From a virus, in the IMG/VR virus record IMGVR_UViG_3300032289_000641, positions 1 to 21,849 of that record: a DNA stretch of 21,849 nt; one strand, given 5' to 3'. Shown here piece after piece: positions 3,233 to 17,101 of this stretch. The position numbers and the translations under genes were made by a program. Position 1 is the stretch's first letter; each line of letters begins with the position of its first letter. The notes below the pieces were generated by a model, which was not told where the DNA came from, ran no database searches, and worked only from the letters and a program-made list of their open reading frames with translations.

Positions 3233-3469
3233 ATGAAATATACAGTTCGCATAAATGAAACCCAGTATTGGCAATTTGATTTTGAAGTAGAAGCCAAGAG
3301 CAGTGAAGAAGCCTTGCACTTAGGTGAAGCCCTTTACTACGAAGGTATGCAGTCTGATGACAATGAGATGGTGGATTGTCATACCACTGCGATTCAAATT
3401 AAAGATGCAATAAACAAAGAGTTTTTTAACCGCATTACAAACAATCTGCTAGGAGAAAAAAATGCCTAA
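3233..3469 (+). CDS. Small beta-alpha-type protein (member of a local paralogue family)
   Basis: A 78-residue protein with TAGGAGA seven bases before its ATG. It starts MKYTVRINET, continues with a beta-strand pattern (QFDFEVEAKS) and then a helix (SEEALHLGEALYY). The order 'KY.V......VeA.s.eEA...a...Y' is shared with proteins at 4247-4429, 4422-4580 and, on the other strand, 17094-17291. The C-terminal part holds the coding strand of leader copy 4, so the last residues (LLGEKNA) double as the ribosome site of the next gene. It overlaps that gene by eight bases. Function is unknown. Confidence 0.7.
   Translation: MKYTVRINETQYWQFDFEVEAKSSEEALHLGEALYYEGMQSDDNEMVDCHTTAIQIKDAINKEFFNRITNNLLGEKNA
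3446..3456 (+). repeat. Leader motif CTGCTAGGAGA, copy 4 (inside a coding region)
   Basis: Exact copy of the motif, here inside the 3' end of the gene at 3233-3469, where it encodes part of the LLGE segment. AGGAGA is five bases before ATG 3462. It is preceded by AT rather than AA, and I see no hairpin directly upstream. Confidence 0.75.
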
Positions 3470-4052
3470 TTGGTGCAATAACAATTTATATATTTCACAC
3501 CCTGATCCAAAGATGATGGAGAAGGCAGTAGAAGCATGGAACAGTGGCAAGTTCTTGGGAACACTTGTGCCTGAGCCTGACTACACAAAGGTAAAGGTAA
3601 AACATACATTTACAACAAATCTAGTTAGTGGAGAGCCAAAGCCTGAGTTCGTTGATCCTGACCAAGCATGGTGGGACTGGCGAGTTCAAAACTGGGGAAC
3701 AAAGTGGGATATTGGCAAGAGTGAAGACTATGACAATTCTGCTCAGTTGAATGGCGGTTCAATGTTTGTCTATTTTGATTCTGCATGGTCTCCACCTTGT
3801 GATGCGTATGCCACGCTAGTTGAAATGGGTTATTCCATTCGTGCCTACTACTACGAAGGCGGTTGTGCTTTCTGCGGTAAATGGGAAGATGGCGATGATG
3901 AGTTCTACAACATTGATCCACCTGAAGGAGTAAAGACTAGCGTATGGGTATCTGAGAACATTCCCAAAGACATAGATTCAGAAATGGATATTGCCAGTTC
4001 ATATGAATCTTATGAAGAAGATGAAGAGGAGGATGAAGATGCCGAAGTTTGA
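3462..4052 (+). CDS. MPNWC-type (YubB/API92-like ferredoxin-fold) protein
   Basis: A 196-residue protein starting MPNWCNNNLYI, the signature N-terminus of the DUF1281/YubB-type family (ferredoxin-like fold, found on plasmids and phages). Residues 62-85 contain DPDQAWWDWRVQNWGTKWDI, matching the family's 'W...nWGtKWd' core. A Trp/Tyr-rich middle follows (FDSAWSPP, then YYYEGGCAFCGKW at about residues 128-140, with a CxxC pair). The tail (about residues 168-196) is extremely acidic, almost all Glu and Asp, and is unusual compared with the core. The start is supported by leader copy 4. It overlaps its upstream neighbour by eight bases and its downstream neighbour by fourteen. Biochemical function is unknown. 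Confidence 0.8.
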   Translation: MPNWCNNNLYISHPDPKMMEKAVEAWNSGKFLGTLVPEPDYTKVKVKHTFTTNLVSGEPKPEFVDPDQAWWDWRVQNWGTKWDIGKSEDYDNSAQLNGGSMFVYFDSAWSPPCDAYATLVEMGYSIRAYYYEGGCAFCGKWEDGDDEFYNIDPPEGVKTSVWVSENIPKDIDSEMDIASSYESYEEDEEEDEDAEV

Positions 4053-5547: not shown

Positions 5548-6325
5548 ATATTCCTACCCTTTGGTGATAGTCGTTAAAGTCTTCACCATCTTTGTCTGAT
5601 AGCCAGTAAGGTTTGCCAGTATCCTTTGCGGATGACTCGCCTACCTTATTGGCATCATTATCAGCCACCACAATTCCACCTTTTACAGTTGATGCGACTT
5701 CCTTTAGATTGGATGCGGAGAAGCATACATAAATGGAACATGGCACTTTATTTGCTTGCATACACGCTTTAATAGATAAGGCGGTAGCGTAGCCCTCGCA
5801 AAATATAGGAATACCACCACCATCCATGCAAAAGTATGCTCCTTTAGTTCTTTGCCCATACAAGAATTTCTTTGAACCATCAGGATTGATTAACTGGACA
5901 CCACGCAAAGCCTTGCCGTGTCGCATAGGCAACACCAGTTTGGCTATGTTATTTTCATACCAAACAATGCCATGATCTTTAGGAAATCCTTTGGCAGCCA
6001 AGTAGGGATGCAGTTCGCTTTTTGCTTGGGCTATGATTTGATTTGCTTTGTCTATGGCTTCTTTTTCTTTTTGCTGGCGTTCTTCTAGGTCTTTTTTCAT
6101 AGCAGTTCGCATGGCGGTAGCGTCATAACTAGACTTACCATCAGGATGCCAAACAACTGGCTTATCCATTGTTGCCCAGTTCTGCACAAAAGCAACCTCG
6201 CCTAAATACTTATATCTGCCATTTCTTGCTCTTGGTTTATCTTCTGTTGGCACTGCGACCCATTTATTAGGAATTACAGAGGACATGATTAACCCGTGTA
6301 GTCTTGCAAAGTCTTCAAATCTCAT
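5477..6325 (-). CDS. TOPRIM primase-like protein
   Basis: A 282-residue protein, last gene of the leftward replication operon; ATG 6325 overlaps the helicase stop as ATGA. The N-terminal 70 residues contain a Trp/Pro-rich pattern (VVWHPDGK). A charged coiled segment follows (about residues 78-105), then HPYLAAKGF at 106-114, a motif typical of phage primase-like proteins. The TOPRIM core has CEGYATALSI (176-185) with the catalytic Glu, and VVADNDAN (219-226) with the acidic pair. DGEDFND (246-252) is also typical. There is no N-terminal CHC2 zinc finger, but the neighbouring helicase carries a zinc ribbon, so the two may work as a primase-helicase pair. The tail overlaps the convergent plus-strand gene. 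Confidence 0.8.
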   Translation of the reverse strand: MRFEDFARLHGLIMSSVIPNKWVAVPTEDKPRARNGRYKYLGEVAFVQNWATMDKPVVWHPDGKSSYDATAMRTAMKKDLEERQQKEKEAIDKANQIIAQAKSELHPYLAAKGFPKDHGIVWYENNIAKLVLPMRHGKALRGVQLINPDGSKKFLYGQRTKGAYFCMDGGGIPIFCEGYATALSIKACMQANKVPCSIYVCFSASNLKEVASTVKGGIVVADNDANKVGESSAKDTGKPYWLSDKDGEDFNDYHQRVGIFTASQSLKKIVSSCLKVPSFQYA

Positions 6326-7800
6326 TTATTTTTTCCTTTTTGCCAGCGAATGTTTTGACTCTTTACCCAGTTCATGGTGGTTAAAGTTGGCGGTGCTTTG
6401 ACCTCTTCCAATCCTCTTGGCCATACTCCAAACTTCTCTTTGTATTTGTGGTTTGCCCAGTAAGGGTTGTATGCCCTCTCTTCTGCAATGTAGAGTAGCT
6501 CTGAATAAAAAGTCTGTTTGTTTTGTTTCTTATCTACTGTGACATTGCCTGCCAGTTCTACCAGTTCGCCTGCCACGGATGACACTTGGTTTCTACGCTG
6601 TCTTACATGACCACAAGATGGACAAGTATCAGCATGGACAGGCCATAGGTATCCACATTCAGGGCATTTAGATTCTTTTTTCTCTCTTTCGGTAGGTTCT
6701 TTTTGTGTCTTCTCAGTCTTTTTATCTAAAGCGGTGACACCATTTGTATATACATCATCCCAGTCTTTACGAAATCTTAGGTAGTTTCCTGAATGATCTA
6801 GCCATAAAGCAAACTGTTTTGACTCATGCGGTCTCATTACTCGACCCATCTGCTGAATATGGGATGACAAAGACTTACTAAAAGGTCTGGCGGACACGCC
6901 TATCATGACATCAGCCACATCAAATCCTCTTGTCAGGATGTCAGTAGCAATCAGCCCGTTGATTTGCGTATCAGGTTTAGCAAAGTCTTCGATTGCAGCC
7001 TTCTTAAATTCGTCATTGTCTTTATAAGAGATAGATACAAAGTTATATCCTTTCTCTGCAAAGCGTTGAACAAGGTGCGAACCATGTGCCACGCCAGCGC
7101 AAAACACAATCGTCTTCATGGGCTTTCCGTATATCTCATGGGTTTTCTTGACCCATTCATCCACAATATCGCCTGTAATCTTCATTCCTCGTTCAGCTAC
7201 ATCGTCAGCCGACCACTCTCCAGCTAACTTCTTTGCCCCAGTCATGTCAATTTCTTTGGCAATATAGACTTTAAGTGGTGCTAACCATTTCTTATTAACC
7301 AAATCTTCGGTGGTAGCACCTGTGACTACATTGGAATAGATGTCTCCTAAACCCTTAGTAAATGGTGTGGCGGTCAGGCCAATCACTCGGATGTCAGGAT
7401 TGTCTTTAATGAAAGCGGAAGTCTGCGCCCTGGCGATATGACACTCATCTACGATAAGTAAATCCATCTTCGGAAAGTTTGCTCTGCGTTCTAAAGTCTG
7501 CGCTGAACACACTTGCAGTCTCATAGTAGGATCGTATGCCCAGTGGTCAGCCTGAAATACTCCATGAGAGATGTTGTATTTGTTTAGCCGTAGACTGGTT
7601 TGATCGACTAACACAATGCGGTCTAGAACCATCGCAGCCCGATTGTGCTTGTCATGAGTAGCCTTCATTAAAGAAATGGCTACCTCGGTCTTTCCAAAGC
7701 CTGTGGGAGCATAGAGCAGCTGCGTTCTATGTCCCGCTTTGAACCCTTCCCTGAGTTTGTCAATTACATCGGTTTGATGTTCTCGTAAGGTAAGTTCCAT
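6322..7800 (-). CDS. Superfamily 2 DEAD/DEAH-box helicase with zinc ribbon
   Basis: A 492-residue ATP-dependent helicase. Visible motifs: Q-tip LREHQTDVI (5-13), Walker A APTGFGKT (31-38), motif II DECH (118-121), motif III LTATP (142-146), motif V ATDILTRGFD (285-294) and motif VI QQMGRVMRP (316-324). A four-cysteine zinc ribbon follows at 379-396 (CPECGYLW...CPSCG). The C-terminal 95 residues are of the type seen in phage RecQ/UvsW-like helicases. It probably unwinds or remodels DNA during phage replication or recombination. The start overlaps the stop of the ParB-like gene by one base (TAATG), and the stop overlaps the primase start, so the three are translated together. Confidence 0.9.
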   Translation of the reverse strand: MELTLREHQTDVIDKLREGFKAGHRTQLLYAPTGFGKTEVAISLMKATHDKHNRAAMVLDRIVLVDQTSLRLNKYNISHGVFQADHWAYDPTMRLQVCSAQTLERRANFPKMDLLIVDECHIARAQTSAFIKDNPDIRVIGLTATPFTKGLGDIYSNVVTGATTEDLVNKKWLAPLKVYIAKEIDMTGAKKLAGEWSADDVAERGMKITGDIVDEWVKKTHEIYGKPMKTIVFCAGVAHGSHLVQRFAEKGYNFVSISYKDNDEFKKAAIEDFAKPDTQINGLIATDILTRGFDVADVMIGVSARPFSKSLSSHIQQMGRVMRPHESKQFALWLDHSGNYLRFRKDWDDVYTNGVTALDKKTEKTQKEPTEREKKESKCPECGYLWPVHADTCPSCGHVRQRRNQVSSVAGELVELAGNVTVDKKQNKQTFYSELLYIAEERAYNPYWANHKYKEKFGVWPRGLEEVKAPPTLTTMNWVKSQNIRWQKGKNK

Positions 7801-8931: not shown

Positions 8932-9177
8932 CTAAGAAATCTCGGTTGCTTTTTGGTGAACGCACCCCTGCCATCCTGGAGTGCCTTCAACAGTTTGCTT
9001 TTTGGAGCCACTGCACCCGCCAGACGTGTCGACTTGAGGCTCTGGCTTCGCCACCCCTTCTCCTATTTCAAATCTATCCCACAGTAAGAGATCTTCCCAT
9101 ATCGCTGTTGTGTTGACCGACCAATATGGTGAAGCTGCGGAGGAAATTAAGCAAAACGATTTGTTCGTTCTGTTCAG
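8932..9177 (-). CDS. Possible CTG-start ORF of unknown function
   Basis: An 81-residue reading frame on the minus strand with no ATG, GTG or TTG near its beginning. CTG at 9177 is preceded by AGGAGG (9187-9182, four bases away), within GGGCTAGGAGG, which recalls the repeated CTGCTAGGAGA leader. An in-frame TGA at 9207-9205 rules out a longer form. The product has five Trp and four Cys, in segments such as SPYWSVNTTAIWEDLLLWD and DTSGGCSGSKKQ. It ends 29 bases before the next gene of the replication operon. I recognise no family. It could equally be a non-coding leader; the frame may be fortuitous. Confidence 0.3.
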   Translation of the reverse strand: MNRTNKSFCLISSAASPYWSVNTTAIWEDLLLWDRFEIGEGVAKPEPQVDTSGGCSGSKKQTVEGTPGWQGCVHQKATEIS

Positions 9178-11232: not shown

Positions 11233-11517
11233 TTAACCTATATGCCCATTTTCAAATAGCCAGCCAATTGTTTTGCGGTGGGCATCCTCCCACATCTCAA
11301 TCCTTTCGGCCTTTGAGAGCTTCTGTCCTTGATCGAGCTCCGAGTGGCAGCTAAAACACAAGGCCGCAATCCGATAATCATGGGCTTTAAGTCCTCTACC
11401 CTTACCGTCTCGAAGCTGATTGGAATGTGCAGCCACAACTGTCCCGTCTTCTCTACCACACGTCTGGCATGGAGATTGTCTAACAATGTCTAGTAACTTT
11501 CTATTTCTATAGATCAG
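11233..11517 (-). CDS. HNH-type endonuclease, probable CTG start
   Basis: A 94-residue protein. It contains CQTCG (about 17-21), VVAAHSNQ (27-34), KAHDYRIAALCFSCHSELDQG (about 44-64) and KTIGWLFENGH near the end. The CxxC, AHS and CxxCH arrangement fits phage HNH/DUF1364-like nucleases. The obvious GTG at 11436 would remove the first CxxC, so the true start must be upstream. The only near-cognate codon in frame is CTG at 11517, which overlaps the previous gene's stop as CTGA, the same geometry as the many ATGA junctions here. It probably cuts DNA during replication, recombination or packaging. The start is inferred. Confidence 0.72.
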   Translation of the reverse strand: MIYRNRKLLDIVRQSPCQTCGREDGTVVAAHSNQLRDGKGRGLKAHDYRIAALCFSCHSELDQGQKLSKAERIEMWEDAHRKTIGWLFENGHIG

Positions 11518-11714
11518 AAAATATCTTTCATTTTTAAGATGTCATATTGCCACAGAAGACGTTTGCGTAGTTTTTCTAAAGCTGAAGTCTCAATTAATTG
11601 AACGTAAGTCTTACTTACACCCAGTTCTTTAGCTATCTCAGCATAGGACATACTGGCATCGTCTCCAGCCCCACGCCCTGCGTTTTCTCTATCTTCTGTG
11701 GTAAATGTTGTCAT
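11514..11714 (-). CDS. Sigma-70 region 4-like HTH protein
   Basis: A 66-residue protein with AAAGGAG eight bases before ATG 11714. Residues 22-52 (MSYAEIAKELGVSKTYVQLIETSALEKLRKR, given in two parts: MSYAEIAKELGVSKTYV then QLIETSALEKLRKR) match sigma region 4.2, which binds the -35 element. No region 2, 3 or 4.1 is present. It is thus a free-standing HTH regulator rather than a sigma factor, possibly redirecting or blocking host RNA polymerase. The stop overlaps the HNH gene start (CTGA). A second protein of the same kind lies at 5188-5547, otherwise unrelated in sequence. Confidence 0.72.
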   Translation of the reverse strand: MTTFTTEDRENAGRGAGDDASMSYAEIAKELGVSKTYVQLIETSALEKLRKRLLWQYDILKMKDIF

Positions 11715-11724
11715 CTAAACTCCT

Positions 11725-12504
11725 TTACGCTGATCTTGGAAGTTGTCCACTAAATGTATAGGTTCCAGTATGACCGAATTGCGCCCAAGGTGCAGCATAA
11801 ACTTTAAAACCAGCCTCACGTGCAATCTTGCAGAAGTGATAGTCCTCTGATAACAAGCGGTTAGATTCTTCATCAATAGAAGTGGCAAAGAACTCTTTAA
11901 TGACCTTAACTTCACGTACAGTATCTACGGCATGGTACATATCATTGGTATAGCTAGGAACCTTATCAGCCAGCTTATCAAACACTTCCCGTTTAATTAG
12001 CATAAACCCTGTACCGCCATTGGCAATTTCCATTGGCTCTCCTATTGGGCCTGATTTAGTGTTTGTCCCATGAGGTAAGTTAACCACGAAAGCGCCTGTA
12101 AACTTGCTAAGTTCTGCTGCTGGAACACCACGTTTAACGGCAGCCTCTACCTCAACCCAGTTAATCTCCTTCTTTGGGTATAGGCCACAGATAATGTCTT
12201 TATCAGCCTTAATCATCAAAGGAATGTCATTAGGATTAAAGTTAATGTCCGCATCAATAAACATTAGGTGAGTAGCATCAGACTTTATAAAGTCATAAGC
12301 CATGCTATTTCGAGCACGGGTAATTAAAGACTCATTCATCATAAAACTGAAGTACATCTTGATTCCATTCTGACCACAAGCTCCTACCAGCTGCATAATC
12401 CCAGAGGCGTACATACCAGTACACATACCGCCATACATGGGAGTTGCTACAAAGATAGTTGCCCCAGACTGGGGTGGAGCAATAGTAACTGTTGGCTTCT
12501 TCAT
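11725..12504 (-). CDS. Glycosyltransferase (GT-A-like, DxD motif)
   Basis: A 259-residue protein; ATG overlaps the previous stop as ATGA at 12504. Motifs: IFVATPMYGG (17-26), SLITRARNSMAYDF (59-72), FIDADINFN (82-90) with the nucleotide-sugar and metal-binding DxD at 84-86, and NGGTGFMLIKREVFDKL (around 165-181). A SEDYHFC segment near the end resembles the acceptor-side acid motif. The arrangement fits a GT2-type enzyme of a class that I know from phage and bacterial genomes. The donor sugar and acceptor cannot be read. It is the last of the five glycan-type genes of the long operon. Confidence 0.8.
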   Translation of the reverse strand: MKKPTVTIAPPQSGATIFVATPMYGGMCTGMYASGIMQLVGACGQNGIKMYFSFMMNESLITRARNSMAYDFIKSDATHLMFIDADINFNPNDIPLMIKADKDIICGLYPKKEINWVEVEAAVKRGVPAAELSKFTGAFVVNLPHGTNTKSGPIGEPMEIANGGTGFMLIKREVFDKLADKVPSYTNDMYHAVDTVREVKVIKEFFATSIDEESNRLLSEDYHFCKIAREAGFKVYAAPWAQFGHTGTYTFSGQLPRSA

Positions 12505-12731
12505 TTCTTTTTTCCTTTGTTTTTAATGTTACGATTAATACCCATAAAATCTGATGATAATTTTTCAAGTTGTTCGCTATATTGTTTTAATATTTCAGCT
12601 GCAGCCCATAGAGCACCGCTTTCAGCGTTATCTGTAATTCGTTCAGCAACCAATTCTACGATCATGGCAGCGCTATGTATTTTATAGCCAACTTCGCTTA
12701 CTTGGTTGGCTTTTTCCCATAATCCATCCAC
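12501..12731 (-). CDS. Small helical phage protein
   Basis: A 76-residue protein starting at GTG 12731, immediately after the preceding stop, with GGGAGA nine bases upstream. It is nearly all helix: a lead (LWEKANQVSEVGYKIH), ALWAAAEILKQYSEQLEKL in the middle, and a lysine-rich end (NKGKKK). The C-terminal half recalls the 'AA..L..q..ei..L' part of the small proteins at 8648-8902 and 13271-13459. Function is unknown. Coupled to the glycosyltransferase by ATGA. Confidence 0.6.
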   Translation of the reverse strand: MDGLWEKANQVSEVGYKIHSAAMIVELVAERITDNAESGALWAAAEILKQYSEQLEKLSSDFMGINRNIKNKGKKK

Positions 12732-12941
12732 TTAGCATCTCCCGTCTATGTCAATTTCTTTAGATAACTTCTTACGCAATTTAGCTCCTGCTTTAGCGTT
12801 CTCGTTCTGTTTAATATAGGCTTCTAGTATATGTATGATGCCTTCTTGCACTAAGAACTCTAATCCTTCTTTATCAAAGTCAATTTCTGCATTGGCGGAT
12901 CCATCTTTATTTTCTTTGATAATTCGTAACTTAATTTCCAC
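12732..12941 (-). CDS. Small phage protein of unknown function
   Basis: A 69-residue protein, GTG start at 12941, with GGGAGA eight bases before it; the start follows the previous stop without a gap. The N-terminal part is a beta pattern (MEIKLRIIKENKDGSANAEIDFD), followed by helix (LEFLVQEGIIHILEAYI) and a basic tail. 'IKL.IIKE..DGSA.AE.D.D.EG..FL' is a recurrent phage motif I have seen in uncharacterised proteins. No enzyme signature. Confidence 0.6.
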   Translation of the reverse strand: MEIKLRIIKENKDGSANAEIDFDKEGLEFLVQEGIIHILEAYIKQNENAKAGAKLRKKLSKEIDIDGRC

Positions 12942-13058
12942 TTAATTCTCCCTGTGGTAGTAGTGTGTTGGGTTATCTAACATTGATTTAATTGCTTGAT
13001 CCACGGTATCAAACCACGCTATATGCCAGCCATCTTCCGTATAGACCTTAAAACTCAT
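12942..13058 (-). CDS. Tiny protein of unknown function
   Basis: A 38-residue ORF from ATG 13058 with GGAAGATAATCC just upstream. MSFKVYTEDGWHIAWFDTVD is a beta hairpin pattern, then a short helix (QAIKSMLDN) and a Tyr/His end. It fills the gap exactly: its stop codon abuts the GTG of the next gene, and its own start follows the preceding stop by three bases. No family recognised. Confidence 0.5.
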   Translation of the reverse strand: MSFKVYTEDGWHIAWFDTVDQAIKSMLDNPTHYYHREN

Positions 13059-13061
13059 GGA

Positions 13062-13268
13062 TTATCTTCCATAGTAGTTTTTTTCTTTTGTCCACTCGTC
13101 CATTGCTTTATCAAACAAGCGTTGTATCTCTGCAATTTCTTTTGCTTGATTTTCAATTACCCTAGCTGCAGTAATTACTAAAGCAGAACCAGCAATTTCC
13201 TTGTCTTGCATATCATTAAATAGTTTGTCAAGGTCTTTTACAAATACTTCAATGTCTAAATGTTTCAT
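13062..13268 (-). CDS. Small helical protein
   Basis: A 68-residue protein starting at ATG 13268. It is almost wholly helical: MKHLDIEVFVKDLDKLFNDM, then 'AGSALVITAARVIENQAKEI' and a charged end with Tyr-Tyr. The middle part has the same 'A..i.....q..EI..l' plan as its neighbours at 13271 and 8648, so distant paralogy is possible. The stop precedes the next start by three bases. Function is unknown. Confidence 0.55.
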   Translation of the reverse strand: MKHLDIEVFVKDLDKLFNDMQDKEIAGSALVITAARVIENQAKEIAEIQRLFDKAMDEWTKEKNYYGR

Positions 13269-13270
13269 TT

Positions 13271-13459
13271 TTATCGTGCCTTTATTGTTTTGTAAATTGC
13301 TTCAAGGAATAAATTTCTTTCTTTCAACGTATCCAGTTCAGCTTGTTGCTGGCGTAGCATCTTTGCTCCTTCAATAACTGGAACACCGCCCTTCATGTTT
13401 AGCGAAAGCAAATCTCTACCCCACATTTCTACTTCATCAGCCAGTTCATTTGCGTTCAC
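13271..13459 (-). CDS. Small helical protein, paralogue of 8648-8902
   Basis: A 62-residue protein. I use GTG 13459 because GGGGGG lies seven to twelve bases upstream and translation from here begins with the family start, VNANELADEVE. A longer frame from an upstream ATG would add unrelated residues and overlap the preceding gene by more. 'NANELADEVE...EGAKMLRQQQAELDTLK' aligns with 'TANQLADKLE...EQAAAMLRQQANQIQQIK' of the replication-operon protein. Function is unknown. It overlaps the upstream gene by fourteen bases. Confidence 0.6.
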   Translation of the reverse strand: MNANELADEVEMWGRDLLSLNMKGGVPVIEGAKMLRQQQAELDTLKERNLFLEAIYKTIKAR

Positions 13460-13616
13460 TGTATGTTCCCCCCAATGCAATAGCATCGTAAACTTGCGCT
13501 GATATTTTAAGCACGTAAGCAATATCATTCGGGGTTAACTGGCCCATTAGTTGCAATATCTTCATTACTGCAACATCGTTATCTAGAGCCTGGGGCTTAA
13601 CTAAAGTTTCAATCAT
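13446..13616 (-). CDS. Small protein of unknown function
   Basis: A 56-residue protein. ATG 13616 (MIETLVKPQALDN) is preferred over GTG 13628 because GGAGAAAGAA precedes it and it overlaps the upstream stop as ATGA. The rest is helical (VAVMKILQLMGQLTPNDIAYV, broken here only for length, then LKISAQVYDAIALGG), with a plan like a short HTH-type regulator, although I cannot assign it. Confidence 0.55.
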   Translation of the reverse strand: MIETLVKPQALDNDVAVMKILQLMGQLTPNDIAYVLKISAQVYDAIALGGTYSERK

Positions 13617-14314
13617 TTCTTTCTCCACGGAAGGTCTTTATATGCTTTTTTCATTGTTTCATTACCATCTTTAAACATTGTAAGTAGTCTGTCTGGCGCT
13701 CTGTAATTAACTGTAGCCTCTCCCGTGCATCCGAAGGAAGGCAAATTTGTGGAGGCAGCTCTATAAAATGGACGGTCTGCGCCCCATTGACCATAAAACG
13801 CATGGGCAATAGATACCAAATACTCCCTACGAAAGCAATAGCAATTAGTATCAACAAAATTAACTGTGTGGTCATAGAAGGTAGGCCATCTTCCGAGTGA
13901 TTCACAGTCATCGTCTTCGATGTATTCTCCAGCTTCATTGCAGATTCTCCTCAAAGAGTAAGACCACATAAGGTCTTTGGATTTAATCTTATCAATCATG
14001 GTCTCTACATGATTTGGCTCAAACCAGTTATCTTCATCCAAGAATAGAATGTAATCAGCGTTTACCATTAAAGGCATAGCCGCATAGACTCGGTGTCCAT
14101 ACCACCCATTACCCCCTACGTTTTCGGGTAAGTCAACAAAAGAAACACATTTTGGTATGTGACCATACGGCATTTTATTCATTGCAAGAATTGCATCAAA
14201 CCCATCCGCAACAATCAAATGTTCCGTATATACGGTCTGATTTTCTACACTTTGCATAGCCTTGTTTACCGTATCTTTCCCAGTAGTCGGGGTGATTACC
14301 ATGATCCTAGACAT
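13613..14314 (-). CDS. GT2-family glycosyltransferase
   Basis: A 233-residue protein. It opens with a Rossmann-like strand and turn (IMVITPTTGKDT, 4-15), followed by HLIVADG (32-38), then YILFLDEDNWFEPNHV (88-103) with the DxD-type metal site at 93-95. AHAFYGQWGADRPFYRA and CTGEATVNYR in the C-terminal half are the acceptor region. The layout fits glycosyltransferase family 2. The start ATG 14314 overlaps the end of the previous small gene, whose stop is TAG 14307-14309. It most likely transfers a sugar onto a glycan; the substrate is unknown. Confidence 0.82.
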   Translation of the reverse strand: MSRIMVITPTTGKDTVNKAMQSVENQTVYTEHLIVADGFDAILAMNKMPYGHIPKCVSFVDLPENVGGNGWYGHRVYAAMPLMVNADYILFLDEDNWFEPNHVETMIDKIKSKDLMWSYSLRRICNEAGEYIEDDDCESLGRWPTFYDHTVNFVDTNCYCFRREYLVSIAHAFYGQWGADRPFYRAASTNLPSFGCTGEATVNYRAPDRLLTMFKDGNETMKKAYKDLPWRKK

Positions 14315-14468
14315 TACTAATCTCCCTTTCTTTTAGCATGGCATCCGCTATCTCATATGCACGGGCTACTGCTAATTCATCCCAGCTTTTAACTGATGTA
14401 TCAAACTTCCAATCACCAGCACATATGCCAGCCATAATTCTTGCGGCAAACTCATCTCTTAAATTCAT
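14307..14468 (-). CDS. Small phage protein, LRD.FA...ADAMLKER type
   Basis: A 53-residue ORF, ATG 14468, overlapping the radical SAM stop as ATGA. LRDEFAARIMAGICAG and then ELAVARAYEIADAMLKERE form the two helices of a small phage family that I recognise by the ending 'AY.iADAMLk.RE'. A paralogue lies at 16904-17101, also inside this operon. Function is unknown. It sits between two glycan-type enzymes, but such proteins are found in many unrelated phage contexts. Confidence 0.65.
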   Translation of the reverse strand: MNLRDEFAARIMAGICAGDWKFDTSVKSWDELAVARAYEIADAMLKEREISNV

Positions 14469-15328
14469 ATCTTCCTCACGTTTTCACAAGATTTACAAAT
14501 ACTGCATTTATTAAATTCTGGAGCCTCGTTTAGGGCAATCAAGTCCTGCAAAGGTTTACCTTGCATTACTTCTTCATAAGTCTGGGTAAGTAGATTACCT
14601 AGAACATAAGTGAGGTTGTAATCCATACAACATAGAACCACAGAGCCATCAGGAAGAAGAACATTCCGATCATAGAATGGTGTTGACCTACAAGTTAGCG
14701 AGAAATCATTGTGGGGCGTGATACTGATTACTTGCCCTTCAATCTGCTCTAAATTGAGGCTATCCGCCCTGGTATGGCCCACCCATCCAGATAATCTTCC
14801 CACAATTGGCTGTAAATCAGGATGCACAACACCTGACCTATCCATAGTCATTGCACCTACACCGCAAGGGATATTAAGAGTAGACATTACTTGTAGGGCT
14901 TTCATCCACTCTTCACTATTCTTCCATCCCTTCATATTCCCGTTGGCATCAGGCAAGTGCAACATCACTACTTCTACTTGATTTGGATGGTCTTCAAGTA
15001 CCTTTTTAACTCTCTCAGGGTCAGTCATACCATAAAGAGTTGTATATATAGCAACGGTATATCCCATGTATAAGACTTCTTCTAGCATAGAGGTACATTC
15101 AGGGTTGGCCCAGGGCTCTGACATACCTGAAAAATCAATGCGGGTATCTTTAGGCAATTTAACCAGCATTGCGGTTAGATCGGTCTGGCTCATGTATTTA
15201 GTAGCCGTACCATATTGCGTACGTAAGTTATCTTGAGGGCAAAATGTACACATCAATGGGCAGCCGATCATTGTCGTTAGCTCCATTACTGGGCCTTCAA
15301 AGTGTTTGATACCGTACTTCTCTTTCAT
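14465..15328 (-). CDS. Radical SAM enzyme with SPASM-type C-terminus
   Basis: A 287-residue protein. ATG 15328 is chosen because it overlaps the previous stop (ATGA) with AAGGA eight bases upstream; an ATG at 15337 would add three residues. CPLMCTFC (residues 23-30) is the CxxxCxxC motif that binds the [4Fe-4S] cluster and S-adenosylmethionine. IDFSGMSEPWANP (64-76) is the 'GE'-type strand. The C-terminal third has seven Cys: CRSTPF, VLCCMDY, then CSICKSC before the end. This is the SPASM/twitch arrangement for extra clusters. Substrates of such proteins range from peptides to sugars. Its place among glycosyltransferases suggests a sugar or peptide modification, but this is inference. Confidence 0.85.
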   Translation of the reverse strand: MKEKYGIKHFEGPVMELTTMIGCPLMCTFCPQDNLRTQYGTATKYMSQTDLTAMLVKLPKDTRIDFSGMSEPWANPECTSMLEEVLYMGYTVAIYTTLYGMTDPERVKKVLEDHPNQVEVVMLHLPDANGNMKGWKNSEEWMKALQVMSTLNIPCGVGAMTMDRSGVVHPDLQPIVGRLSGWVGHTRADSLNLEQIEGQVISITPHNDFSLTCRSTPFYDRNVLLPDGSVVLCCMDYNLTYVLGNLLTQTYEEVMQGKPLQDLIALNEAPEFNKCSICKSCENVRKI

Positions 15329-16053
15329 TTGTACCATCCTTCAGGTAACGGTCTGTCAGGTTTATCTAATACATTTGGTTGATCTAATGGATGAGGAAAC
15401 TGATCACAATAGTCCAACGCAATCGTTCTATCTTTACGCATCAAAGTTAATTCAAATACCGTTGGCATTAAAATCCCATCAACATCTATAAATGGACAGT
15501 TATTGTTAGGGTGGTTATGAACTACACGGAAATCTTCTAATAACTTCTCAAAGAAGGTTGTAACTACAGGCCATGCTAAAGAGTCAAACCATGTATGTAC
15601 ATTGTGGATCTCTACTGCAATGATTCGAAACTTTCGTAGCACATCAGGCGGTGTACACAGTAGCGTTGTGTATTCGCCACCCTCTATATCCATTTGAAGA
15701 ATTAAATCCCCTTTAACGTAGTATTCAGGCTTGCTTAACACCCATTCCATTAAAGTCATATGGGTAGCATTGTTACACCCACCTAGAAACTTCTTAGTAA
15801 ACGATAAGGGGGTAAAGTTTTTGGGTGGTGCATCGACAGACCCATCGGCAAGATGGGAGCCAATGCCACGCTTACAAAGGTCTATTTCAAATGATGCAGT
15901 TACATCTACCCCAGGAGAGAAACAAGCTGTAATGCCCATTAAATCATTAGGAATAAGGTATCCACCATCATTGTTACCACCCACCCGAATCAAATCAAAC
16001 TTAGTCTGAACTGGGCGCAATGAGTCAATTAGCTTTTGTATTTCTTCTTTCAT
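15325..16053 (-). CDS. FkbM-family methyltransferase
   Basis: A 242-residue protein whose ATG overlaps the fucosyltransferase stop (ATGA). ACFSPGVDVTASFEIDLC (43-60) is the SAM-binding glycine/acid block, and LILQMDIEGGEYTTLL (117-132) is the second hallmark of FkbM-type methyltransferases. AVEIHNVHTWF (146-156) and DGILMPTVFELTLMRK near the end also fit. FkbM enzymes O-methylate sugars or polyketides. With the glycosyltransferases next door, methylation of a glycan hydroxyl is the natural inference. No membrane segment is visible. Confidence 0.85.
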   Translation of the reverse strand: MKEEIQKLIDSLRPVQTKFDLIRVGGNNDGGYLIPNDLMGITACFSPGVDVTASFEIDLCKRGIGSHLADGSVDAPPKNFTPLSFTKKFLGGCNNATHMTLMEWVLSKPEYYVKGDLILQMDIEGGEYTTLLCTPPDVLRKFRIIAVEIHNVHTWFDSLAWPVVTTFFEKLLEDFRVVHNHPNNNCPFIDVDGILMPTVFELTLMRKDRTIALDYCDQFPHPLDQPNVLDKPDRPLPEGWYK

Positions 16054-16907
16054 TTCACTATGCTCCTTACGAATTGAATTGCATCATCTAGACTTGGAGC
16101 TTTATTAAGTAGCGGTCTTTCATAAAAATATTTGTATAAATCATTGTCTTGATCACATTTTTTTATATGATTAATAAACCAATCCATACTTTGAATATCG
16201 TAATAATTTAAATATGGCCCATCATCTAGTTCCTCATCATTACAAACAGAACCGCTCCAAATAGGCACAGTACCGCCAGCATAGGCATCAACTAACTTCT
16301 CAGTTATATATCCGTCATAGATTGAGTTCTCAGGGCATAAACTAAATTTATAATCTTTTAAAAGATCAAACTTAGACTTGCGTAAAGGACGGTTAAACAT
16401 ATTCCCATAGCCATCTACTCGCCTGTATTCTGAAATAGAGTTAAATAAATTAACCCGCAGCCCCTCTGGATTTCCAGCAACCATGGCACAGAACTTAGTC
16501 TTTTGGCTCATATCAAGAGTGCGTCCCCTTGTGAGGGATTCAATTGAAATAAGGTCTTCATAGCCATGATTGTGGAAATTGGGTTTCCTAGGTTTTTGAA
16601 TGAACCCAGGCCAAGCTAAACGAGCATACCAGATCGGTAAACGTAGATTCCTACCGCCATAAGTATCGTAATCAAAAGACAGGCTGCGACTATAGCCCAC
16701 AAAACTAGGTCGTACATTTTCGCCAATGTAGGCAAGAGTCTTATTGGGATCTGTTTGCGTGTTTCCAAACACAGAAGTAACAATGAGATCAGCGGTGTAA
16801 GGGTCGCTAATGTAATTAATGTCCCCAAAACAGCTGCGAAAGAAAAAATCAAAGAAATCTCCATCAAACGCTCCCTCCCAAAAGTTAACTACACATATGT
16901 TTTTCAT
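16050..16907 (-). CDS. GT10-type (alpha-1,3/4-fucosyltransferase-like) glycosyltransferase
   Basis: A 285-residue protein whose ATG overlaps the preceding stop (ATGA). The C-terminal catalytic domain is clear: KFCAMVAGNPEGLRVNLF (138-155), YKFSLCPENS (186-195) and GYITEKLVDAYAGGTVPIWSG in two parts (GYITEKLVDAYAGG at 199-212, TVPIWSG at 213-219). These match the donor-binding 'f.l.fENs..d.YiTEKl.da..agtVPvv.G' region of family 10. ENVRPSF (63-69) fits the N-terminal acceptor domain. Family members move fucose from GDP-fucose onto GlcNAc-containing glycans. No GDP-fucose synthesis gene is in the window, so the donor would be host-made. It is the first of the glycan-type genes. Confidence 0.85.
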   Translation of the reverse strand: MKNICVVNFWEGAFDGDFFDFFFRSCFGDINYISDPYTADLIVTSVFGNTQTDPNKTLAYIGENVRPSFVGYSRSLSFDYDTYGGRNLRLPIWYARLAWPGFIQKPRKPNFHNHGYEDLISIESLTRGRTLDMSQKTKFCAMVAGNPEGLRVNLFNSISEYRRVDGYGNMFNRPLRKSKFDLLKDYKFSLCPENSIYDGYITEKLVDAYAGGTVPIWSGSVCNDEELDDGPYLNYYDIQSMDWFINHIKKCDQDNDLYKYFYERPLLNKAPSLDDAIQFVRSIVK

Positions 16908-17101
16908 TTTCCCTTGGCCTTCCTTGCCCGTACTGGAGGCAAGCCAATAGATCCTTTTCCAGCTCTAGCCTCAAGCATTGCGTCAGCTAATGTATAAGAT
17001 AACTCTGCAATCTCTGGAATTACGTAATCACCATCAGACGCAACAAGTAAACCATTCAAAGCAAACATGGCAAAACAATCTCTTAAGTCTTGTTCATTCA
17101 T
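16904..17101 (-). CDS. Small phage protein, paralogue of 14307-14468
   Basis: A 65-residue protein starting at ATG 17101, overlapping the previous gene by eight bases. LRDCFAMFALNGLL near the start and AELSYTLADAMLEAR in the middle align with the protein at 14307-14468. The tail is basic (ARKAKGK) and unlike the paralogue. Function is unknown. The stop overlaps the GT10 start as ATGA. Confidence 0.65.
   Translation of the reverse strand: MNEQDLRDCFAMFALNGLLVASDGDYVIPEIAELSYTLADAMLEARAGKGSIGLPPVRARKAKGK

Follow-up and report, generated by a model that had tools for sequence, protein, structure and literature searches.

A five-enzyme glycan cassette

The window, the whole 21,849-nt stretch of IMG/VR virus record IMGVR_UViG_3300032289_000641 analysed here, comes from an aquatic bacterial virus and carries on its minus strand a cassette of five predicted glycan enzymes: a GT10 fucosyltransferase-like enzyme, an FkbM-type methyltransferase (FkbM), a radical-SAM enzyme (rSAM), a GT2 glycosyltransferase and a further, GT-A-fold glycosyltransferase (GTA). 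All five open reading frames (ORFs) lie where an earlier note on this DNA had placed them, interleaved with small ORFs (Table 1). The ATGA coupling that it described was seen at the s65/GT10, GT10/FkbM, rSAM/s53 and s76/GTA junctions, and also occurs at FkbM/rSAM and GT2/s60 if starts at 15328 and 13616 replace the longest-ORF starts. In many relatives the small ORF s53 keeps its place between rSAM and GT2; it has a C-terminal module in common with s65, homologues of which often adjoin GT10 or GTA. Hydropathy analysis revealed no membrane segment in the five enzymes, all of which look soluble.

Table 1 Genes of the cassette (11725-16907) and its immediate neighbours
Feature	Coordinates	Strand	Evidence and remarks
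Sigma-70 region 4-like small protein	11514..11714	-	PF04545 3.6e-7; follows GTA; neighbour, not a cassette enzyme
GTA, GT-A-fold glycosyltransferase	11725..12504	-	phrog_1574 2.8e-50; invariant DAD motif
Small ORF, 76 aa (s76)	12501..12731	-	ATGA-coupled to GTA; homologues in relatives
Small ORF, 69 aa	12732..12941	-	Homologues in relatives
Small ORF	13062..13268	-	Homologues in few relatives
Small ORF, start uncertain	13271..13528	-	Homologues at shifting positions in relatives
Small ORF, 60 aa (s60)	13446..13628	-	Likely start 13616; same-place homologues in relatives
GT2 glycosyltransferase	13613..14314	-	PF00535 1.1e-6; invariant DED motif
Small ORF, 53 aa (s53)	14307..14468	-	phrog_2201 3.6e-12; synteny
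Radical-SAM twitch enzyme, BtrN-like	14465..15337	-	PF04055, PF13186; likely true start 15328
FkbM-type SAM methyltransferase, 242 aa	15325..16053	-	PF05050 in 22/23 homologues
GT10 fucosyltransferase-like enzyme, 285 aa	16050..16907	-	PF00852 2.9e-17; FucT_N 4e-6
Small ORF (s65)	16904..17101	-	phrog_2201 5.6e-9; ATGA-coupled to GT10

Because the neighbouring genes encode Erf, a PD-(D/E)XK exonuclease, ParB, a helicase and a primase, we infer from gene position that the cassette belongs to an early-type operon and is transcribed with the recombination genes. A promoter scan scored below the shuffled mean and thus not above chance, and terminator-like sites numbered 13 against 9.0 expected. The profile searches proposed for each enzyme were run, and Pfam and PHROGs profiles matched the expected families, with the FkbM copy alone falling below its Pfam cut-off. 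Four of the five enzymes have no function assigned in PHROGs, a PADLOC scan gave no defence match, and an NCBIfam scan gave sub-cut-off matches only.

Conservation and exchange of the cassette

The earlier note made a joint pathway depend on the enzymes co-occurring in other genomes, and the order GT10-[FkbM]-rSAM-GT2-GTA indeed recurs in 58 distinct related IMG/VR contigs (about fifty related viruses), where it adjoins two different replication modules within one podovirus-like lineage. GT2 is followed by GTA in 49/49 contigs, GT10 lies upstream of rSAM in 48/48, and no non-core gene of at least 180 aa intervenes between GT10 and GTA. A GT2-seeded search recovered GTA in 61/65, rSAM in 41/65 and GT10 in 41/65 cases, and a GT10-seeded search found GT2 in 17/20, rSAM in 16/20 and GTA in 15/20; the contigs recovered by these seeds are in part the same ones. 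The catalytic motifs are invariant in the alignments, and dN/dS values of 0.05-0.33 against six relatives, where measurable, indicate purifying selection. FkbM is missing or lies elsewhere in some relatives; in one locus (L056) GT10 and FkbM are swapped for another GT-like protein and a Methyltransf_24 protein, and in another (L030) the cassette gains a PIG-L deacetylase.

The enzymes might instead be independent morons that share a neighbourhood and not a pathway. Pairwise identities among the cassette genes correlate moderately over 39 contigs (r 0.49-0.87) and weakly over seven long relatives, and therefore members are exchanged separately; GTA, moreover, often occurs alone. Against such independence stand the strict order over 58 contigs and two replication backbones, the ATGA coupling and the lack of large intervening genes, and we regard it as very improbable. 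The cassette genes are exchanged between replication backbones, and the data support a joint pathway.

The combination, which had been called unusual, is so among named phage records but not among environmental contigs, where it recurs. A nucleotide search of the phage collection found no match, and tblastn gave none there for FkbM or GT2. Phage glycosylation clusters are already known; in the literature searched, neither this enzyme combination nor a radical-SAM step in a phage glycan was found described.

GT10 and the supply of fucose

GT10 exceeds the curated PF00852 cut-off by a wide margin (63.3 versus 23.9 bits), and the family was found in 17/18 related records. Its closest solved relative is the Helicobacter pylori alpha-1,3-fucosyltransferase (PDB 2nzw, 8.7e-20), with which it shares the donor-binding C-terminal domain (aligned residues 136-266), although the cassette enzyme is shorter and fucose-donor genes are absent from the window. 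The claim that no sugar-nucleotide gene is present holds for the window and for seven related 52-67 kb contigs, but not for T4-like relatives (L058, L059, L060 and L063), in which genes for GDP-mannose dehydratase (GMD) and GDP-fucose synthase adjoin GT10, rSAM and GT2 in the cluster. In cyanophage S-SKS1, GMD and GDP-fucose synthase genes likewise adjoin GT10. Unlike the cassette, these T4-like relatives and S-SKS1 have their own GDP-fucose synthesis and further glycosyltransferases, and FkbM and usually GTA do not adjoin. The GMD and GDP-fucose synthase genes that adjoin GT10 in these relatives support fucose as the sugar and GT10 as a putative transferase of L-fucose from GDP-fucose.

GT2, FkbM and the radical-SAM enzyme

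The DED motif of GT2 is invariant in the alignment, and a GT2 profile, which was needed for matches to solved structures, retrieved RmlT, TarP and chondroitin synthase. The FkbM copy of the window scores 18.6 bits (0.0022) against a PF05050 cut-off of 22.7, whereas 22/23 FkbM homologues match the family (best 2.8e-7); searched singly against the PDB with phmmer, it gave no match.

rSAM matches PF04055 (1e-6) and the SPASM family PF13186 (1.9e-10). Its description as a radical SAM/SPASM protein stands for the radical-SAM part, but the C-terminal domain resembles a twitch and not a full SPASM domain. The CxxxCxxC motif (Cys 26, 30 and 33) and Cys 216, 236, 237, 281 and 284 are invariant (30/30), whereas Cys 278 occurs in only 21/30, a pattern that looks like one auxiliary cluster with four candidate ligands (Cys 216, 236/237, 281 and 284). 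A single-sequence phmmer search of the PDB gave no match; a profile was required, and it retrieved BtrN (3.7e-7), a twitch-type radical-SAM dehydrogenase from the butirosin pathway (PDB 4m7t). BtrN is the best match by both profile and fold (model Z 16.6, 227 aligned residues, 3.5 Å) and has a compatible cysteine pattern, although identity is about 15-18% and rSAM sits in a phage glycan cassette rather than in an aminoglycoside pathway. Because rSAM is BtrN-like and BtrN oxidises an aminocyclitol, our best guess is that rSAM would carry out a two-electron oxidation of a sugar-type alcohol.

The BtrN substrate is a free aminocyclitol (PMC9012708), which, with the early-looking cassette position, would fit a takeover function, with a host protein or a small molecule, such as a nucleotide sugar or cell-wall precursor, as the target and not a structural glycan. 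A cassette that combines three glycosyltransferases with a methyltransferase instead suggests oligosaccharide building, and we consider a takeover role quite unlikely.

GTA is the hub of the cassette

GTA, a member of phrog_1574 with a weak, sub-cut-off Anp1 match, is the hub of the cassette. It is far commoner than its partner enzymes and is usually found alone beside recombination genes, very often adjoining RecT/YqaJ or PolA/SNF2 genes; in phiM7 it lies between gp46- and gp45-type genes, and Cr30 and DLP6 are further phages that bear the family. The acidic metal motif D84-A85-D86 is invariant. Neither single-sequence phmmer nor a profile search retrieved anything for GTA from the PDB, whereas its model (pLDDT 80) shares its fold with the GT-A enzymes STIV A197 (Z 16.5), LH3 (16.3), Mimivirus R699 (15.6) and COLGALT1 (Z 14-16.5 across the four), with a PBCV-1 capsid-glycosylation enzyme lower in the list. 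The absence of a family from the structural match lists of GTA and rSAM was not counted as exclusion, and the PDB search included no solved DNA-acting GT-A enzyme. STIV A197 is an essential glycosyltransferase with a proposed role in capsid glycosylation (PMC10551542).

The acceptor of the glycan

The earlier note had listed phage DNA as one possible target. The cassette might glycosylate DNA on a modified base, in the manner of T-even phages, as protection against restriction: GTA lies within the replication and recombination operons of many phages, the T-even DNA glycosyltransferases occupy similar regions, and DNA glycosyltransferases with a GT-A fold (TAGT) exist (PMC13216743). However, a hydroxymethylase of the thymidylate-synthase family was found in 0/19 records (which may be incomplete, as is the genome of the window) with nine positive controls, and TAGT (PF20691) in 0/15 records with a positive control. 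GTA and GT2 have no profile similarity to T6 TAGT (an hhalign comparison gave probability 0.3), and no base-modifying enzyme is among the Pfam matches that two long relatives (G001 and G010) gave for their non-structural proteins. The alpha- and beta-glucosyltransferase families (PF11440 and PF09198) were unmatched in a Pfam scan of the cassette proteins only. The Tet_JBP dioxygenase was found in 0/18 records, a result made uninformative because no control gave a match either. The likeness to the T-even enzymes consists in phage glycosyltransferases in replication regions, whereas the cassette lacks a family match and the relatives searched lack a hydroxymethylase; base modification is disfavoured and, in our judgement, unlikely.

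GT10 and FkbM are enzyme types characteristic of LPS and capsule loci, which points to the host envelope: the cassette, early-looking in position, could extend or cap LPS or another surface glycan during infection, blocking competing phages or progeny readsorption. A cellular rSAM relative in Rhodoblastus (L119) adjoins GT4, GT17 and GT2 genes and an apparent acyltransferase gene. Glycosyltransferase genes of pelagimyophages have been interpreted as O-chain modification (PMC7029224); those aquatic phages likewise carry glycosyltransferase and radical-SAM cassettes, compared here by description only, but in a hypervariable region with tail-fibre genes. On the other side, all five enzymes look soluble, and Pfam matches (E<=1e-4) in the partial non-structural gene sets of G001 and G010 include no flippase (gtrABC-type or other), polyprenyl-phosphate glycosyltransferase such as membrane GtrB, or integrase. 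Among ten neighbours of bacterial rSAM genes scanned, a tally in which high GC impaired gene calling, only those at the Rhodoblastus locus and one GT2-like neighbour (L127) were glycan-like. We regard envelope editing as possible, although we would not expect it.

Virion protein is narrowly favoured over the host envelope as the acceptor, with DNA less likely. The modelled GTA fold, matching STIV A197, LH3, R699 and COLGALT1, supports a virion or other protein acceptor, as do distant rSAM relatives that are flanked by tail-fibre genes (DSL-LC02) or surrounded by head genes (vir524). Against it, the cassette is set within recombination and replication genes and does not adjoin structural genes, unlike mycobacteriophage-type virion glycosylation genes; such adjacency is common for virion-glycosylation enzymes and not required. 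The lone GTA copies that adjoin RecT/YqaJ or PolA/SNF2 genes suit an early or DNA-linked role equally well, fold similarity alone does not prove function, and cassette divergence in the long relatives fails to track terminase or portal divergence. Collagen-like GXY runs and Ser/Thr-rich stretches, which could serve as acceptors, were also sought in the virion genes; several long relatives have short GXY runs (up to 8), a control-free and hence uninformative observation.

A putative assembly line for a phage glycan

We tentatively propose, at somewhat less than even confidence, that the cassette encodes a cytoplasmic assembly line for a small glycan that is fucosylated, methylated and oxidised, primed by GTA and most likely built on a virion protein. 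In this pathway, whose step sequence, substrates, fucose identity and acceptor we infer, GTA would place the first sugar on a phage-made acceptor and GT2 the second; the BtrN-like rSAM would oxidise or otherwise rearrange a hydroxyl of one sugar; GT10 would add L-fucose from host GDP-fucose; and FkbM would O-methylate a sugar as a cap. GTA would be the constant base, with the enzymes upstream of it serving as exchangeable tailoring steps, so that related phages would end with different sugar coats. The fuller form of this proposal, in which GTA primes protein, a radical-SAM enzyme alters one sugar and glycan coats of hitherto unknown kinds differ between related virions, is doubtful.

If the proposal is correct, phages that are common in fresh water and sediment would carry genes for a modular route to a tailored oligosaccharide, and this route would include a radical-SAM step. 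It would also explain how often phage recombination operons contain the uncharacterised glycosyltransferase family phrog_1574, and would allow serotype-like variation of phage glycan coats to be tested directly.

Organization of the probable glycan cassette

By ORF reading, the 21.8-kb window, a virus record from IMG/VR, encodes a cassette running in the order GT10, FkbM methyltransferase, radical SAM protein, a 53-aa ORF (s53), GT2, five more small ORFs and a second GT-A-fold glycosyltransferase (GTA). GT10, the radical SAM/SPASM protein and GT2 passed the Pfam cut-offs, and GTA was assigned to phrog_1574; the FkbM protein of the window is by itself a weak match to PF05050, a family matched in 22 of 23 homologues. 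ATGA overlaps occur at the s65–GT10, GT10–FkbM, radical SAM–s53 and s76–GTA junctions (s65 and s76 being small ORFs), and starts at 15328 and 13616 would add the FkbM–radical SAM junction and that between GT2 and s60, a 60-aa ORF. None of the five enzymes contains a hydrophobic segment. Genes for an Erf annealing protein and a PD-(D/E)XK exonuclease lie upstream of the cassette, and ParB-like, helicase and primase genes lie past GTA.

A 66-aa sigma-70 region 4-like protein is encoded immediately past GTA. The s53 and s65 ORFs share a phrog_2201 C-terminal module, and small ORFs resembling this pair occupy varying cassette positions in relatives. Elsewhere in the window, an Api92-like ORF shows a weak DUF1281_C match, slightly under the cut-off. 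A Betaproteobacteria-1 RNA (RF02932, E 1.4e-17), found too in three relatives, G001, G002 and G003 (L101, L108 and L114), hints at a betaproteobacterial host.

Coordinates of the cassette and of other features in the window and in related loci
Feature	Location	Coordinates	Strand
Cassette, GT10 to GTA	window	16907 to 11725	minus
s65 (phrog_2201 C-terminal module)	window	16904-17101	
s53 (phrog_2201 C-terminal module)	window	14307-14468	
s60	window	13446-13628	
s76	window	12501-12731	
Sigma-70 region 4-like protein	window	11514-11714	
Betaproteobacteria-1 RNA	window	9015-9131	minus
Api92-like ORF	window	3462-4052	
PIG-L family deacetylase	L030	6774-7274	
Lone phrog_1574 gene	phage phiM7 (L144)	5959-6936	

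Conservation of the cassette as a unit

IMG/VR was searched with the radical SAM protein alone, the best 80 of 135 stretches were retained, and gene order was counted over 58 contigs (L002-L057, L065 and L067). In this set GT10 lies upstream of the radical SAM gene in 48 of 48 cases and GT2 ahead of GTA in 49 of 49. GT2 comes no more than 2 kb after the radical SAM gene in 44 of 52 cases, and in the other 8 the two are separated by other genes, mostly FkbM. No non-core gene of at least 180 aa lies between GT10 and GTA in any of these contigs carrying both. The dN/dS values of the cassette, where measurable, are 0.05–0.33. Searches seeded with GT2 or GT10 retrieve the partner enzymes, the seeds in part re-finding the same contigs. 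GT10, the radical SAM protein, GT2 and GTA thus co-occur in a conserved order, as expected of the joint glycan cluster proposed in the earlier note, and the five enzymes likely act together.

Probable radical SAM chemistry and donor sugar

The top relative of the radical SAM protein is BtrN, in both profile (3.7e-7) and Foldseek (6.5e-8) comparisons. The modelled protein aligns with the BtrN structure over 227 residues at 3.5 Å (Z 16.6), peptide-modifying enzymes rank behind (Z about 14), and the cysteine pattern of the cassette protein appears compatible with a twitch domain. Since BtrN acts oxidatively on an aminocyclitol (PMC9012708), our best inference, by analogy, is that the cassette enzyme would oxidize a sugar hydroxyl.

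GT10 aligned to the Helicobacter pylori FucT across the donor domain. In the T4-like relatives L058, L059, L060 and L063, a GT10–radical SAM–GT2 set is accompanied by some or all of GDP-mannose dehydratase (GMD; PF16363, 5e-151), a GDP-fucose-synthase-like epimerase and a DegT aminotransferase, and in cyanophage S-SKS1 GMD and GDP-fucose synthase lie near GT10, which supports fucose as the donor sugar. These four T4-like clusters contain several glycosyltransferases and adjoin sliding clamp and clamp loader genes. Neither GMD nor GDP-fucose synthase was found in the window or in seven long relatives, so host GDP-fucose would be needed there; the claim that sugar-nucleotide genes are missing accordingly holds for these two enzymes in these genomes, but not for the T4-like relatives.

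GTA and its partners

GTA is far commoner than the other cassette enzymes, its search matching at least 600 stretches. Among 78 new GTA loci, GT2 is present in only 16 and the radical SAM gene in 6; the neighbours are mostly RecT, YqaJ exonuclease or PolA/SNF2 genes, and sometimes FkbM or other methyltransferases. The T4-like phage phiM7 carries a lone phrog_1574 gene, annotated as hypothetical and flanked by genes for a recombination endonuclease subunit and a sliding clamp, and a further group (L278-L289) has a GT2–GTA pair without radical SAM. This wide distribution, mostly without partners, together with the GT2–GTA pairs, suggests that GTA is the base enzyme and the other members are tailoring steps. 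This tailoring part differs between relatives: FkbM is absent or relocated in some, a GT-like protein and Methyltransf_24 take the place of GT10 and FkbM in L056, and L030 has an added PIG-L family deacetylase (PF02585, 1.1e-12) between GT10 and FkbM. Separately, a C5-cytosine DNA methyltransferase-like ORF was recognized by eye near GTA in L177, L192, L193, L283, L284 and L289.

Candidate acceptors

The predicted GTA model (pLDDT 80) is best matched by, and in fold resembles, STIV A197, LH3, Mimivirus R699, COLGALT1 and Mnn9. STIV A197 is an essential glycosyltransferase with the capsid as its proposed target (PMC10551542), and distant radical SAM relatives are flanked by tail-fibre genes in DSL-LC02 and lie amid head genes in vir524. 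We counted these observations for a protein acceptor, and tentatively favour a virion protein. The host envelope is a somewhat less probable acceptor: one cellular radical SAM relative is located with glycosyltransferase genes, and GT10 and FkbM are common members of lipopolysaccharide loci. Pelagimyophage glycosyltransferase sets have likewise been interpreted as host-envelope modification (PMC7029224). DNA is an unlikely acceptor, with gene position the sole point in its favour; neither a thymidylate-synthase-family hydroxymethylase nor the T-even DNA glycosyltransferase TAGT (PF20691) was found in the relatives searched, and base-modifying enzymes are absent among the non-structural proteins scanned. 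A Tet_JBP search gave no match, but its control was silent as well, so this counts neither for nor against DNA. Among the surface, virion and DNA targets originally considered, DNA recedes, and the choice between protein and envelope is close.

Exchange between phage backbones

Phage glycosylation clusters are of a known kind. A cluster combining these five enzymes, one of them BtrN-like, was absent from the named phage records and the open-licence literature searched; its supposed rarity is borne out for named phages, but it recurs in 58 IMG/VR contigs. The replication module beside the cassette is of the Erf/PDDEXK/ParB/helicase type in 26 of these and of the PolA/SNF2/exonuclease type in 20, 12 being too short to tell. 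Terminase and portal are common to the long relatives (63–85% and 66–93% identity to G001, respectively), and these identities are not tracked by those of the cassette, indicating that it has been exchanged among related phages. The cassette is conserved and exchangeable, and probably assembles a glycan.
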